Virus record (IMG/VR): IMGVR_UViG_3300032087_001530
Location: 1 to 20,400 of that record
DNA: 20,400 bases
Source of the DNA: a virus
Reading direction: 5' to 3' (one strand)
Shown in pieces: positions 6,280 to 11,363 of the stretch. Under the pieces are notes generated by a model that ran no database searches, was not told where the DNA came from, and worked only from the letters and a program-made list of their open reading frames with translations. The first letter of the stretch is position 1, and every line of letters begins with the position of its first letter. The position numbers and the translations under genes were made by a program.

Positions 6280-7779
6280 TTATATAAGTGTAAAATCCCC
6301 TTCACTTGAAACCGTACAATTATCTTGTGCCACTTGTTGAACAACACCAAAGTCATCAATTCGTATAACGTTAAATGTTGCACCTATGTTACCCACTAAG
6401 CCTGTTATTGAGTCGCTAACACCGAACCACTTTTGACCCCCTGCAAATGGACTACCATTAAAACATAATATTTTCCCAATCCAATCAGAAAGATTAGAAA
6501 ATGATATACCTGCACCTACAAGTTGCACTCTAGTTTCGTGGGTTAGTCCACAAAATCCATCAGAAGTAGATTGACCATTTTGGGTTATATATACGTTTAT
6601 TCCTGTTCCACAAGGGTTATCGTCAGGTGGTTGTGTGGTGTTAAACTCACAAGGTCCAATGTTTGCACCCCCTGAATTACTATAACCTGTCGAAGGTGGC
6701 TGAATGGTTAAATAAATAATTCTTGCTGTATTAGTACTAACAGGGTCAAATTGTTGTGGTGTCCAACTAACTAACGTACCGTGTGATATTGTCGGTGGTG
6801 CTATATTACCGCTTGGACTTATAAACCCTCCCTGAAAAGGCTTTGCATCATCACAACCAAAAGTAGGTAATCCCGTATCATTTGTTTGACTATAATCCAC
6901 GTTACAGTTAATAGTAGCACCTACTGAATAATTACTGTATCCCTGTGGTATATATATTTCGTATGTTATTGTTTTTGTTACAGGGCTTCCTCCTGTATTA
7001 GCACCTACGTTATAAGGCAACGTTAAAGCACTACTATTGTATCTTATTTCTTTGATGCCTCCACTTATTAAAATTTGCGATAAGTGTAAAGTACCGTCTT
7101 GGTCTATTCCTCCCGTTGTAGGGTTAATTAAACCTGCCGTATCGCAATCGTATGCTTCGGTACAAGGTGTGCTAAATGTAAAAGCGTTTGATACATCAGT
7201 ACAAGTATCATTTGCATTTTTTGCAACTACTCTAAACGTGGCACTCAAACAGTTTACATTGCTACTTATTGTGAGTGTGTCTCCTGAAACGCTATGTGCT
7301 ATCCCTGCATCTCCCTGTCTATTGACTGAGTAACTACTTATAGCTGCACCACTTCCTGCGGTAAAGTAAGTTGTTAAATCTATTGTGGTACTTGTGCTAT
7401 CTGTAACATTTGGTATTGTACCTGAAAAGGTTGGACAATTAGTGTTTTGTGCAGGGTCTTCTTGGGCTGTTTGACTTGGTTGGTCTGCTGTAACACTACA
7501 AATAAAAGTACCATCCGAAGCGTTAGTATATCCACTTGGTATCTGTAATGTATATGATACGGTTCTACTTATAGGGCTACCTGTGGTGTTTTCTGCAAAA
7601 CTTGTGTCTGTTTGGTCAATTATTGTACCGTGTCTAGGTGAAGGAACTGTTATAAGACCTGCACTCGATACTGCGAAGTTTTGTAAGTCTGCTGTATTAC
7701 AGTCGTATGCACCTAAAGCAGGTGTAGGTTCTACAAACTCTAAAAAGAATGGACTACGTGCGTTTATTTTTGTACTCAT
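6280..7779 (-). CDS. Cys-rich repeat protein, putative tail adhesin
   Basis: This 499-residue protein contains three related modules. They begin near residues 24 (AYDCNTADLQ), 209 (AYDCDTAGLI) and 308 (FGCDDAKPF), and end in a shared core: TLQIPSGYTNASDGTFIC, EIYIPQGYSNYSVGATINC and TIQPPSTGYSNSGGANIGPC. Modules one and three also share an HGT turn (RHGTIID, SHGTLVS). Residues about 115-205 look like a separate Ig- or cadherin-like domain (TIDLTTYFTAGSG, GDTLTISSN). Fourteen cysteines are spread along the chain, which is high for a phage protein. The composition (Thr, Ser, Asn, Gly) fits a surface-exposed adhesin or decorated tail protein. Its gene overlaps the gp10-like gene by ATGA. A receptor-binding role is inference; a major tail protein with Ig-like additions is the alternative. 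Confidence 0.65.
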   Translation of the reverse strand: MSTKINARSPFFLEFVEPTPALGAYDCNTADLQNFAVSSAGLITVPSPRHGTIIDQTDTSFAENTTGSPISRTVSYTLQIPSGYTNASDGTFICSVTADQPSQTAQEDPAQNTNCPTFSGTIPNVTDSTSTTIDLTTYFTAGSGAAISSYSVNRQGDAGIAHSVSGDTLTISSNVNCLSATFRVVAKNANDTCTDVSNAFTFSTPCTEAYDCDTAGLINPTTGGIDQDGTLHLSQILISGGIKEIRYNSSALTLPYNVGANTGGSPVTKTITYEIYIPQGYSNYSVGATINCNVDYSQTNDTGLPTFGCDDAKPFQGGFISPSGNIAPPTISHGTLVSWTPQQFDPVSTNTARIIYLTIQPPSTGYSNSGGANIGPCEFNTTQPPDDNPCGTGINVYITQNGQSTSDGFCGLTHETRVQLVGAGISFSNLSDWIGKILCFNGSPFAGGQKWFGVSDSITGLVGNIGATFNVIRIDDFGVVQQVAQDNCTVSSEGDFTLI

Positions 7780-8282
7780 TTTTTAAGTGTAAATTCTAAT
7801 AATTCTTCTATGTCTAAACCGTATGCTTCTATAATTTCATCGGGTAACTTTTTAAACCCTTGCTCAAATGGCTTTGTAAAAAACAGACTCGGTTTAATAC
7901 CTTTCTCAAATATGCTTCTTTGTATCAAAAACGACATACTTTGATAAGACATAAACTTTCCTTTCTTATCCCTAAATTGGAATCTTCGTTTGCTTATCCA
8001 TTCTTCTAGTGTTTTGCGTGGTGGTCTTTTAGAGGTGTAACTAAATGGTGTGTTGTACTTCTTCTTCGTACCGCTCACACCTTTGTCCTGATACACCCCA
8101 TAATCTTCCATACTAAAAGATAAACTAAAACTATTAGGATTAACTTTAACCTCTCCATCAATACTTTTATATAGTTTACCATTTACGTTCTTTCTACCCT
8201 TGCTTAATCTACTACGTGATTGCTGTATCACAAACTTCTTGAAGTTGTTTAGTGCTTGATATGTATATCCTTTCGTTAACAT
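7776..8282 (-). CDS. HK97 gp10-like head-tail connector/tail completion protein
   Basis: This 168-residue basic protein has the hallmark of the HK97-gp10-like family: a helical N-terminus, a beta stretch (FSLSFSMEDYGVYQDKGVSG, residues 52-71) in which 'Y..y.dkG.sG' is the recurring family signature, and a basic central region (TSKRPPRKTLEEWISKRR). A helical C-terminus with RSIFEKGIKPSLFF follows, where a GIkp.pFf phrase is also typical. Members sit at the head-tail joint or help complete the tail. The ATG overlaps the previous stop by 7 bases and its stop overlaps the adhesin start by ATGA, so it is co-translated within the virion operon. Confidence 0.72.
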   Translation of the reverse strand: MLTKGYTYQALNNFKKFVIQQSRSRLSKGRKNVNGKLYKSIDGEVKVNPNSFSLSFSMEDYGVYQDKGVSGTKKKYNTPFSYTSKRPPRKTLEEWISKRRFQFRDKKGKFMSYQSMSFLIQRSIFEKGIKPSLFFTKPFEQGFKKLPDEIIEAYGLDIEELLEFTLKK

Positions 8283-8731
8283 ATAGTCATATCGTTTTCT
8301 ACTACTACGTCAAAAGTAGCTACCCATCCCGCTAACTTGTTTTCAAATCTATCTACAAATGGCTCACAACCTACTGCACCAATTACTTGATACTTGTCTG
8401 TATATACATCACCTCTTTGTAAGATTGATATTAGTCTATTTAGTATTGCTAATTGTGTATTAAGTACGTCTTGCTCGTTATCGTTTCCTACAAAATCATC
8501 TTCTGTTTCTTCTTTCGATTCATCTACCACATCCATTGCAAGAACGCTAATATTAAATGTAAGCGTATTGTTTGCTACATTACAATTATTCACAATGATG
8601 TGAGACAAAGGAAATATAGTTTGTTTGTTTAAATCCACGTCATCAAGACTTCCATAAGTAACCGTGTTTACAAATGGCTCTGCACTTAGCGTGTCCTTTA
8701 TCTTATCTGTTACATTGTAGAAACCTGTCAT
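8276..8731 (-). CDS. Putative neck/tail terminator protein
   Basis: This 151-residue protein starts at an ATG overlapping the stop of the -1 frame of the chaperone-like gene (ATGA at 8731-8728). It has an alpha/beta layout: an N-terminal helix (FYNVTDKIKDTL), beta strands around residues 40-65 (HIIVNNCNV, LTFNISVLAMDVV), an acidic loop (ESKEETEDDFVGNDNEQD), a helix (LNTQLAILNRLISILQRGD) and final strands (WVATFDVVVENDMTIC). This order fits small tail-terminator and neck proteins of long-tailed phages, and it lies next to the gp10-like gene, the usual partner. I recognise no catalytic motif. Identity is inferred from architecture and position. Confidence 0.6.
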   Translation of the reverse strand: MTGFYNVTDKIKDTLSAEPFVNTVTYGSLDDVDLNKQTIFPLSHIIVNNCNVANNTLTFNISVLAMDVVDESKEETEDDFVGNDNEQDVLNTQLAILNRLISILQRGDVYTDKYQVIGAVGCEPFVDRFENKLAGWVATFDVVVENDMTIC

Positions 8732-9048
8732 CTTTGGTGTCTTTTAATTTGTTGTCTTTCTAATTCTATTTTTTCCTTTTCAAATGCTAAATACAATAGG
8801 CATTCGTGCATTCCTAATTTAGTGATATTTTCAAACTTGGTAACATCTCCCTTAGCGATTCCATAGATGCTTTGATACCATCCCCATTTTTTTCCAAATG
8901 TTGAAGCTGTTGAGTAGTCATTTCCTTGCCCAACTGATTCTCCAAATAGTTCAGGGTAGTTTTCAGCAACTCGTTGTTTAAACGATAAAAAAAAACCATA
9001 CACCCCATTACGACATCTAAAGGTATCTTCTTCATTTGCTCTGACTTA
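8728..9048 (-). CDS. -1 frame extension of the tail assembly chaperone-like gene (GT-type fusion part)
   Basis: This reading frame is open from just after a TAA at 9048-9046 to a TGA at 8730-8728. It is -1 relative to the 220-residue gene it overlaps. The only convenient initiation codon is a GTG at 9003, without a leader. The slippery run at 8995-8987 would instead join residues 1-163 of the upstream frame to 86 residues of this frame, giving a product of about 249 residues. The -1 part looks like real protein: KKWGWYQSIYGIAKGDVTKF followed by LGMHECLLYLAFEKEKIELE. A 'lhecL.yLa.ekek.e.E' helix is common in the C-terminal parts of tail assembly chaperones. Its stop is coupled to the next gene by ATGA. 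Separate initiation at GTG 9003 is the alternative. Confidence 0.7.
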
Positions 9049-9476
9049 TCAATACCACTGTATTCTTCTATTTGATACCTTGTATCTTTCTTTAATGTAA
9101 TAGGTCTATAAAGAACCGCCATCGCCTTGTGCATCGTTTCCCAATCGGAGAAGTTTTCGTCTAGGTCTATGTACTCCCCTAAACTCATATCATCTAATAC
9201 AGGTATAAACCCGTACTCAATGCCACCCATTTTAAATGTTGGTATTAATTCTTGATTTGCTTCAAACAAGCTGTTTATATCGTTTAGAATGTCTTTAACG
9301 TAGCTAAACTTAATCTTTGCAATATCCTTTAATTCTAAGTTACAAAACACCTCAACGGTCTTGTGCATTAAGAAACTACTGTCTCTGTTTTCTTCCGTAT
9401 TAATCTTCGCAAACTTTTGGTATTGCTCTAACGTTATATCAGATAAACTGCTTGGAACTAATATATCAACTTTCAT
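8814..9476 (-). CDS. Putative tail assembly chaperone, zero-frame product (G-like)
   Basis: This 220-residue acidic, mainly helical protein starts MKVDILVPSSLSDITLEQYQ, a pattern I associate with a conserved Bacteroidetes phage family in the tail region. It is the first gene of the virion operon, 38 bases after an intrinsic terminator. Residues 154-163 (VVMGCMVFF) are encoded over a run of nine T on the coding strand, where a -1 slip would replace the C-terminal 57 residues with another 86. The zero-frame C-terminus (LLKTTLNYLENQLGKEM, LEKNGDGIKASMESL) also looks like authentic protein, so both products may be made, as in lambda G and GT. It is not directly before the tape-measure gene as in lambda, so the chaperone role stays an inference. 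Confidence 0.7.
   Translation of the reverse strand: MKVDILVPSSLSDITLEQYQKFAKINTEENRDSSFLMHKTVEVFCNLELKDIAKIKFSYVKDILNDINSLFEANQELIPTFKMGGIEYGFIPVLDDMSLGEYIDLDENFSDWETMHKAMAVLYRPITLKKDTRYQIEEYSGIDKSEQMKKIPLDVVMGCMVFFYRLNNELLKTTLNYLENQLGKEMTTQQLQHLEKNGDGIKASMESLREMLPSLKISLN
8971..8995 (-). promoter_or_regulatory. Candidate programmed -1 ribosomal frameshift site
   Basis: The coding strand reads GTT TTT TTT TAT in the zero frame, giving a T_TTT_TTT heptamer that fits the X_XXY_YYZ rule for -1 slippage. The -1 frame then continues TTA TCG TTT AAA. A short perfect stem follows at once (TCGTT, loop TAAAC, AACGA, 8985-8971), a weak possible stimulator. The slip leads into an 86-codon open frame whose stop is coupled to the next gene. 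Confidence 0.65.
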
Positions 9477-9538: not shown

Positions 9539-9591
9539 CTCTTTCGCATTACTAACTAAACAAAATAAAAATGAAAAATGTAAATCTTTTT

Positions 9592-9855
9592 CTAATTTAC
9601 AAAATTTTTAAACATATACAAATACATTTCATTTATTTTTAAACTTAATTTTTCGCTGTTTTGCTCGTACGAATCTTCACCCATCTTCAACTGACCTTGT
9701 AAATCCATTTGCAATTGAACAGGGTAAGGCTTCTTCGACCATCCACGCCCCATAGGAACTTGTATAACATAGAAACCTTTATCAAAACAACTAGACATTA
9801 CTTTGTCTCTTATCTTGTGGTCTAAGTTCATTTGTTCTAGTGTTACAGTTTCCAT
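9592..9855 (-). CDS. Hypothetical phage protein (87 aa)
   Basis: I chose the ATG at 9855 (METVTLEQMNLDHKIRDKV) because it overlaps the end of the preceding membrane protein gene by 13 bases. A longer in-frame start at 9927 would run far into that gene in another frame and adds an unlikely Phe-rich sequence. The 87-residue protein is hydrophilic with a central RGWSKKPYPVQLQ segment and a helical C-terminus. No family is recognised and no motif points to a function. It is the last gene before a strong terminator, in a short cluster of three small ORFs between the large terminase gene and the virion operon. Confidence 0.65.
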   Translation of the reverse strand: METVTLEQMNLDHKIRDKVMSSCFDKGFYVIQVPMGRGWSKKPYPVQLQMDLQGQLKMGEDSYEQNSEKLSLKINEMYLYMFKNFVN

Positions 9856-10010
9856 AAATAAGAAATTAAATACATAACGCCCCACATTGATGCGTACATA
9901 AAAGCCATCGCAAAAGGAACTTGCCATAGTGCTTTCTTAATTGCGTTCTTGTTTTCTTGTGCGGTTAGTTGTTTAACTATCCTGTACTCGGTTGTTTCTT
10001 GAATTTTCAT
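9843..10010 (-). CDS. Small membrane protein (55 aa)
   Basis: This 55-residue ORF starts after an A-rich leader (TTTAAAACAACAATT-ATG), as other genes in this window do. The N-terminal half is polar (MKIQETTEYRIVKQLTAQEN). The second half, from about residue 30 (LWQVPFAMAFMYASMWGVM to YLISYLW), is a single strongly hydrophobic segment, likely one membrane span with the N-terminus in the cytoplasm. Its stop lies inside the next gene. Function is unknown; candidate roles are accessory lysis or exclusion proteins, which the sequence does not decide. Confidence 0.7.
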   Translation of the reverse strand: MKIQETTEYRIVKQLTAQENKNAIKKALWQVPFAMAFMYASMWGVMYLISYLWKL

Positions 10011-10020
10011 AATTGTTGTT

Positions 10021-10155
10021 TTAAATTAAATATGCTTCAAAGCATTGTCCTGAACAGAAGTTTTTGTCTGTCGGTAGCCCACAAGTCGGGCAGGGTTCAT
10101 CGGTGTCACCAATTCTTTCTAAATAACTTTCGTACTCGTTTACTAAATAATCCAT
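10021..10155 (-). CDS. Small zinc-ribbon-like protein (44 aa)
   Basis: This 44-residue ORF starts MDYLVNEYESYLERIGDTDE and then has CPTCGLPTDKNFCSGQC. The four cysteines in two pairs (C-x2-C, nine residues, C-x3-C) suggest a treble-clef or zinc-ribbon fold. It begins after the leader TTAAAACAAACAAT-ATG and 38 bases after the terminase stop, downstream of a candidate promoter. Its stop is 10 bases before the next start. A small metal-binding regulator or adaptor is plausible, but no specific function is known. Confidence 0.7.
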   Translation of the reverse strand: MDYLVNEYESYLERIGDTDEPCPTCGLPTDKNFCSGQCFEAYLI

Positions 10156-10174
10156 ATTGTTTGTTTTAATAATG

Positions 10175-10204
10175 CTAATATATAAACATTTTATTAATAA
10201 ACAA
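10175..10204 (-). promoter_or_regulatory. Candidate Bacteroidetes-type promoter overlapping the terminase stop
   Basis: TTG at 10204-10202, a 19-base spacer, then TATATTAG at 10182-10175, one or two mismatches from TAnnTTTG. It overlaps the end of the large terminase gene and would drive the 44-residue gene from about 10168. One of five similar candidates here; not tested. Confidence 0.35.
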
Positions 10205-11363
10205 AATATTGTCCTTTATTCGGATTCTCTAGTTGGTCTGTTAGTGCATATCTCATCGCATCAATACAGTCAGGGTGTTCTCCCGTTGGTTTCTGTAACG
10301 TATTACCCTCTTTGTCCTTTGCCCATATATATCCCTGCAATTCACGTTTTAGATTCTTACTTCTTGATGTAACGTATATTTCGTTTTGGTTTATTAGGTT
10401 GATTCCATATACTACTGAATCCCTACCCTTAGAACAAGGGAATACGTTATGTCCATATCCCTGTAATTCTGATATAGATTTCGGTTCGGCTGAATCTGCT
10501 GTGATGTTTTCTCTTATGTTATTTGATTGTAAGAACCTACTTATATCCCTATTAAGCATTCCTTTCTTACAAAGCACCTCATCTGCTATATATGCGTTAT
10601 TCCACTTGTATATTGCTATTAACGTTGTAGGGTCAACGGAATATCCAAAGTCCATCCCATACCCAAGCAAACGTGCCTCATCAGGTATTGTGTCTATTTC
10701 TTTCCAATCAGGAATACATACACCTTCTAAACTACCTATCTCTCCTAATCCATATACTCTCCACCAATTTGCCCAATAAGTAGAAGTCTTTGCTTTTACC
10801 TTTGCCTTTTCTATTTCGTTTACTATTGTCGAGGGTAGACTGTCGTTATCCTTATATGTTAGTGTTATGAAGTCGGTATCATCTTTTCCTACCAATTCCT
10901 TATCAACCCAAAATAAAGCAGCAGGGTTATAGTCTAACCAAATGTTCCCACTCGTTCTTACTACTAATTGTTGGTAAGCATCAAAGGGTACGTTATTACA
11001 CTCATTGATATATAAGTCTGTTCTTCTTGCACCTCTTAGTTTATCAGGTTGGTCTGTACTAAAGAACTCTATATAACTCCCATTCGTAAACGTGTATTTT
11101 AAGGTGCTTTTATTTAGTTGGCTATCCTTATACCTATTAAGACCCTTTAAGATGTTTAAGAAGTCCTTATAAGCACCTCTACGCAAGTGTGGGATGCTTT
11201 CACTTACTACGGATATTTCTTTACCCTCGTTTCTGATGGCATAATCAATAAGAATAAGCAAGATGCAAATAGTCTTTCCTGCTGATGTTCCACCTCGTAC
11301 AATCTTAACTCTATTGTCAAGGTTTCTAAGTTTGGTAAGTGCTTGTGTTTTTTTAATCTGCAT
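10194..11363 (-). CDS. terL: Terminase large subunit (TerL)
   Basis: This 389-residue DNA-packaging motor ATPase and nuclease has a Walker A motif RGGTSAGKT at residues 23-31 and a Walker B-like DLYINEC at 116-122, where Glu121 would be catalytic. The C-terminal RNase H-fold nuclease shows acidic clusters at GYGMDFGYSVDPT, TADSAEPK and HPDCIDAMRYA, which supply the metal-binding aspartates. The order and motifs fit the PBSX/Terminase_3-like group. It is a little shorter than many TerL proteins (about 420-500) but lacks no visible motif. The gene follows the small subunit by 30 bases. It cuts concatemeric DNA and pumps it into the prohead at the portal, whose gene is not in this window. Confidence 0.95.
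   Translation of the reverse strand: MQIKKTQALTKLRNLDNRVKIVRGGTSAGKTICILLILIDYAIRNEGKEISVVSESIPHLRRGAYKDFLNILKGLNRYKDSQLNKSTLKYTFTNGSYIEFFSTDQPDKLRGARRTDLYINECNNVPFDAYQQLVVRTSGNIWLDYNPAALFWVDKELVGKDDTDFITLTYKDNDSLPSTIVNEIEKAKVKAKTSTYWANWWRVYGLGEIGSLEGVCIPDWKEIDTIPDEARLLGYGMDFGYSVDPTTLIAIYKWNNAYIADEVLCKKGMLNRDISRFLQSNNIRENITADSAEPKSISELQGYGHNVFPCSKGRDSVVYGINLINQNEIYVTSRSKNLKRELQGYIWAKDKEGNTLQKPTGEHPDCIDAMRYALTDQLENPNKGQYFVY

Follow-up and report, generated by a model that had tools for sequence, protein, structure and literature searches.

The lambda G/GT gene slips at the sequence GGGAAAG. Frameshifting of the lambda type is widespread in the tail genes of long-tailed phages, with −1 slippage on the ribosome being the known mode in such genes (PMC5009743). 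Slippage may also take place during transcription on runs of nine A or nine T, as described for the dnaX gene of Thermus and for IS elements: nine is the usual length at which selection on such runs appears, and the conservation of 9A or 9T in all homologues is taken as a mark of purposeful slippage (Baranov et al. 2005; PMC1088944).

The gene considered here can be compared with both of these systems. It lies in a window of 20,400 nucleotides (the whole stretch of DNA analysed, being positions 1 to 20,400 of the IMG/VR virus record IMGVR_UViG_3300032087_001530), and it is shared by many phages of marine Bacteroidetes, a large group in which it makes two predicted proteins by a slip of the reading frame. 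It is most likely a new, hitherto unannotated tail chaperone gene of the G/GT kind.

Organization of the locus

The gene is read from the minus strand of the window, as are all the features located below. Its zero frame (8814–9476) begins with an ATG and codes for a protein of 220 aa, the G-like product, which belongs to phrog_32199, a family listed in PHROGs as of unknown function. The zero-frame codons ATG GTT TTT TTT TAT contain a run of nine T (8987–8995), the putative slippage site, and within this run the heptamer T_TTT_TTT stands in register (8988–8994), with TTT in both the P-site and the A-site. The −1 frame stays open over 9045–8728, with the nine-T run inside it, and its stretch beyond the slip (8728–8988) encodes a T-like domain of 86 aa and a stop, without a usable start of its own. 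The predicted slip product has 163 + 86 = 249 aa: residues 1–163 of the 220-aa protein are common to both products, and residues 164–220 are unique to that of the zero frame. The two frames share a dual-coding overlap of about 57 codons (8814–8987) with signs of constraint on both, and the TGA that closes the −1 frame overlaps the ATG of the next gene in an ATGA (8728–8731), which is the same in 155 of 176 relatives. The initial annotation, made from the letters of the window, had proposed this run, its register, the −1 window, the coupling of the −1 stop to the next gene and products of 220 and about 249 residues; all its coordinates and lengths proved correct.

Most reading events would remain in frame and yield the G-like protein, and a minority would shift to −1 at the T run and yield a GT-like protein with a different 86-aa end that is highly conserved. 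By analogy with lambda, both proteins are probably made, in an unequal ratio.

A second slippery heptamer, T_TTA_AAC, lies in the zero frame 12 nt 3′ of the first (8976–8982), and follows from two coded peptides (LN and FKQ). As the main slip site it was rejected, being present in just 105 of 287 relatives.

Conservation of the slip site and avoidance of similar runs

IMG/VR, contigs of GTDB and phage records supplied the relatives, 287 distinct sequences with both parts of the gene; grouped by identity of the first protein, these fall into 99 clusters at 90%, 47 at 70%, 13 at 50% and 4 at 40%. In all 287 the zero frame carries T_TTT_TTT and the second domain stands at −1. Nine T make up the run in 189 of them, ten in 94 and twelve in 4, and it is never shorter than nine. 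In many relatives the ten-T form has TTT replacing GTT ahead of the same two Phe codons, or else an extra Phe codon; the versions with ten and twelve T are made by substitutions or whole added codons, and the frame is kept. In none of the 287 are both parts found in a single ORF, and relatives with one continuous frame and no slippery run, named at the outset as what would refute a programmed shift, are absent from the set. At two more loci, which stand outside the 287, the −1 domain is missing where the end of the contig is reached. Both C-termini, earlier judged protein-like in appearance, are conserved in the aligned relatives. The same site is also present in the isolate genomes of the Nonlabens phages P12024L and P12024S, at about 29–33% protein identity in both frames, and the close bacterial contigs that carry the domain belong to bins of Bacteroidetes or Flavobacteriaceae. 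The transition between frames is genuine and is conserved across these sequences.

The remaining genes of these phages offer a different picture: synonymous shuffling of 792 other genes, taken from 80 non-redundant loci, predicts 11.8 ± 2.3 T runs of nine or more, and these genes have none; among the 1,434 genes of a larger set, three such runs occur where about 20 are expected. In this larger set, A runs of at least nine are also reduced, to about 0.22, whichever the codon phase. The putative chaperone gene retains a sequence that is avoided by the remainder of these genomes. Coding T runs are depleted from length seven on, and both T and A runs of at least nine in every codon phase. Moreover, T7 starting at phase 0, which has no heptamer in register, is depleted to the same degree as T7 at phase 2; thus, the avoidance of runs is unspecific to ribosomal slippage.

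Selection on two frames

In pairs of 58–70% nucleotide identity, fourfold sites of the zero frame differ at 0.63 upstream of the run and at 0.20 in the overlap, and those of the −1 frame in the overlap are low as well, differing at 0.33. The rates specific to codon positions likewise pass from (0.31, 0.19, 0.56) upstream to (0.24, 0.34, 0.32) after the run. When five sequences were recoded synonymously in the zero frame, the −1 frame remained free of stops across the overlap in 0.02–1.7% of the recodings; in the reverse recoding, wherein the −1 frame was recoded, the zero-frame tail stayed open in 0.4–2.2% of trials. A simulation of protein identity gave 0.669 for the −1 protein against 0.692 observed, which supports selection, and 0.601 for the zero-frame tail against 0.588 observed, with no signal of selection. 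In the alignment of relatives the −1 domain has a series of invariant residues (F, KW-W, L and others).

On this sequence evidence the −1 domain is clearly under selection. For the zero-frame tail, an openness that is rare by chance and the reduced change at fourfold sites of the −1 frame suggest some constraint, whereby the tail would at least be kept open. With nearly 300 natural sequences, this long dual-coding overlap provides material for a study of selection in two frames.

Slippage on the ribosome or by the RNA polymerase

The reading moderately favored for the slip itself is a −1 shift on the ribosome, wherein tRNA-Phe in the P and A sites would re-pair one base back on U_UUU_UUU. The X_XXY_YYZ heptamer is in register and conserved in 287/287 relatives, and in gp40 of P12024L T_TTT_TTT is the sole in-frame XXXYYYZ site. 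A conserved stimulatory structure is common, though not obligatory, for ribosomal −1 frameshifts; downstream of this run, folding of the single sequence gave z = 0.10, and pseudoknot-free folding of about 115 nt found neither a conserved 3′ structure nor compensatory pairs. A consensus helix of TACCCTGA with TGGGGTGG, 97% paired, was rejected, having zero compensatory changes and two arms that both code for conserved residues.

The alternative that survives best is that the RNA polymerase slips on the T9–T12 run, such that some transcripts gain one U and their ordinary translation would give the fused protein. The polymerase might in this way account, wholly or in part, for the second product of a tail-chaperone pair that has a long stretch of DNA selected in two frames. 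The initial annotation did not consider such slippage; the ribosomal slip that it assumed fits the in-register heptamer but faces a serious rival. A homopolymer of at least nine A/T in all homologues is just what Baranov et al. (2005; PMC1088944) describe, and among the 287 relatives the runs of nine or more T, with none shorter, occur in all three codon phases. In each of the 176 relatives tabulated the heptamer ends in T, although TTC, which makes up 22% of the upstream Phe codons, could stand there without altering the zero-frame protein and mostly without altering that of the −1 frame. The polymerase would also fit the depletion of long coding T and A runs elsewhere, which extends to those out of register, and a +1 frame that is closed by a stop at a median of 2 codons past the run.

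Against this, the frameshifts of tail genes described in the literature consulted are ribosomal (PMC5009743), and T_TTT_TTT may just slip better on the ribosome than T_TTT_TTC. Run length as proof of transcriptional slippage is also weakened: the heptamer and its conserved hydrophobic and aromatic neighbors already impose about nine T, which leaves the length weakly diagnostic, and any run of nine T in its turn contains an in-register heptamer. Since the conserved residues imply about nine T and nine T contain the heptamer, the sequence cannot pick between ribosome and polymerase, and slippage by both could be acting. The gene makes a clean test case for ribosomal versus transcriptional slippage in Bacteroidetes, hosts with little use of Shine-Dalgarno pairing.

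Gene neighborhood and probable function

The large subunit of the terminase (10194–11363) is encoded upstream of the frameshift gene. The next gene codes for a protein of 151 aa (8276–8731; phrog_30964) that looks like a tail terminator, and it is followed by one for a protein of 168 aa (7776–8282; phrog_29822), whose homologue in P12024L weakly matches tail completion/Neck1 proteins. Further along lies a tape measure candidate of 530 aa (1390–2982), a homologue of gp50 of P12024L (E 4e-11); the tape measure of P12024L matches phrog_9483 (E 5.6e-12). The window keeps the gene order of P12024L, which runs from terL through the frameshift gene, a possible tail terminator, a Neck1-like gene and structural proteins to the tape measure and the head protease, and this order supports a role in the tail. 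The frameshift gene stands upstream of the tape measure, as G/GT does, with five genes between the two, in agreement with the earlier remark that several genes separate them, unlike in lambda.

A tail-chaperone role similar to that of lambda G/GT is probable from this anatomy. The single in-frame T7 site, the tail module and the tape measure downstream render the G/GT arrangement first proposed likely, although homology to a proven chaperone did not emerge with it. By the lambda analogy, the part common to both products would form a coat on the tape measure protein, with the long tail bringing in the tail-tube protein, and it is for this reason that the ratio of the two products would matter.

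Sequence searches of Pfam, PHROGs, NCBIfam and PDB gave no match to a named tail chaperone, and the −1 domain matches phrog_38404, of unknown function, in 7 of 43 members. In fold searches, the 220-aa protein as modelled by AlphaFold (pLDDT 78.5) matches I6R9M9 of P12024S and many uncharacterised caudovirus proteins; the lone fold match to bear the name tail assembly chaperone lacks significance (E 0.34), and the fold search of the PDB had no match. The model of the −1 domain is helical and of low confidence (pLDDT 67). Two BFVD proteins, A0A6J5SVK3 (241 aa) and A0A6J5MY57 (244 aa), appear in the fold searches of both parts, weakly so for the −1 domain, and going by these models some distant phages may encode both parts in one frame. 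Another distant fold relative is gp10 of Flavobacterium phage 6H. In the 6H region 9586–10927, gp10 is followed by about 300 nt that are unannotated, with open frames in two other phases; no simple −1 route from gp10 to the downstream frame was found.

It might be argued that the frameshift is real and that its proteins serve head closure or some other assembly step near the terminase, given that the gene adjoins terL, is several genes removed from the tape measure and has no homology to known chaperones. This is unlikely in view of the neck/tail-like genes that follow it. Furthermore, between gp46 and the tape measure P12024L has no other gene with an overlapping slip site (none in gp48), and the fold relative gp10 of 6H likewise has an annotated tape measure gene downstream of it. 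The tail-chaperone reading would give a likely function to phrog_32199 and phrog_38404, and to the split hypothetical genes of the isolated Nonlabens phages.

Access to the −1 frame

A separate overlapping gene with its own start is a very improbable account of the −1 frame. Such a start might be seen in the GTG at 9003, which is, as the initial annotation had it, the sole ATG, GTG or TTG before or near the run in the window, or in the internal ATG from which gp41 of P12024L is annotated. However, the −1 frame of 171 of the 287 relatives, followed from the point where it opens to 90 nt beyond the run, has none of these codons, and 41 have a −1 frame whose opening lies less than 15 nt ahead of the run, so independent initiation fails. 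A start at the ATG annotated in P12024L would exclude the first third of the domain, which is conserved, and the invariant in-register T run would go unexplained. The −1 extension is conserved and is reachable through the upstream frame only, as is the case in G/GT.

An assembly or sequencing error in the T run, raised initially as something that might fuse the two frames and conceivable in so far as long homopolymers are error-prone, can be dismissed because 287 distinct sequences, including the isolates P12024L and P12024S, keep the site and agree on the frame relation, where errors would have fused some. Thus, the invariant run, the −1 relation, the missing starts, the constraint in two frames and the avoidance of T runs of at least nine elsewhere combine to make a programmed −1 transition near certain, at a rough probability of 0.96 as judged from sequence.

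Comparison with known systems

As in lambda G/GT, one gene has, in its 3′ part, a slippery site for a −1 transition, would give a short product and a C-terminally extended one, and has the tape measure downstream in the tail module. Unlike in lambda, the slippery site is a run of at least nine T instead of GGGAAAG, the zero-frame codons beyond it overlap two thirds of the −1 domain with both constrained, five genes intervene before the tape measure, and homology is not detectable. The homopolymeric site in every relative, the long two-frame overlap and the distance from the tape measure gene are the unusual points of the locus. With the transcriptional slippage of the Thermus dnaX and IS type, it shares a homopolymer of at least nine in all homologues that is avoided elsewhere; it differs in being known from DNA alone and in having a register that also fits the ribosome.

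A close likeness is with gp40/gp41 of P12024L and P12024S (Inhavirus; phrog_32199 and phrog_38404), which are homologous in both frames and agree in the T9 run, the register and the gene order. They differ from the gene in the window in a zero-frame tail of just 25 codons after the slip, and in being annotated as two hypothetical proteins, the second of which is started too late. At 24389–24640 of P12024L, gp41 is drawn from the internal ATG and lacks the beginning of the −1 domain, which is conserved. Hence gp40 and gp41 of P12024L are better annotated as one frameshifted pair.
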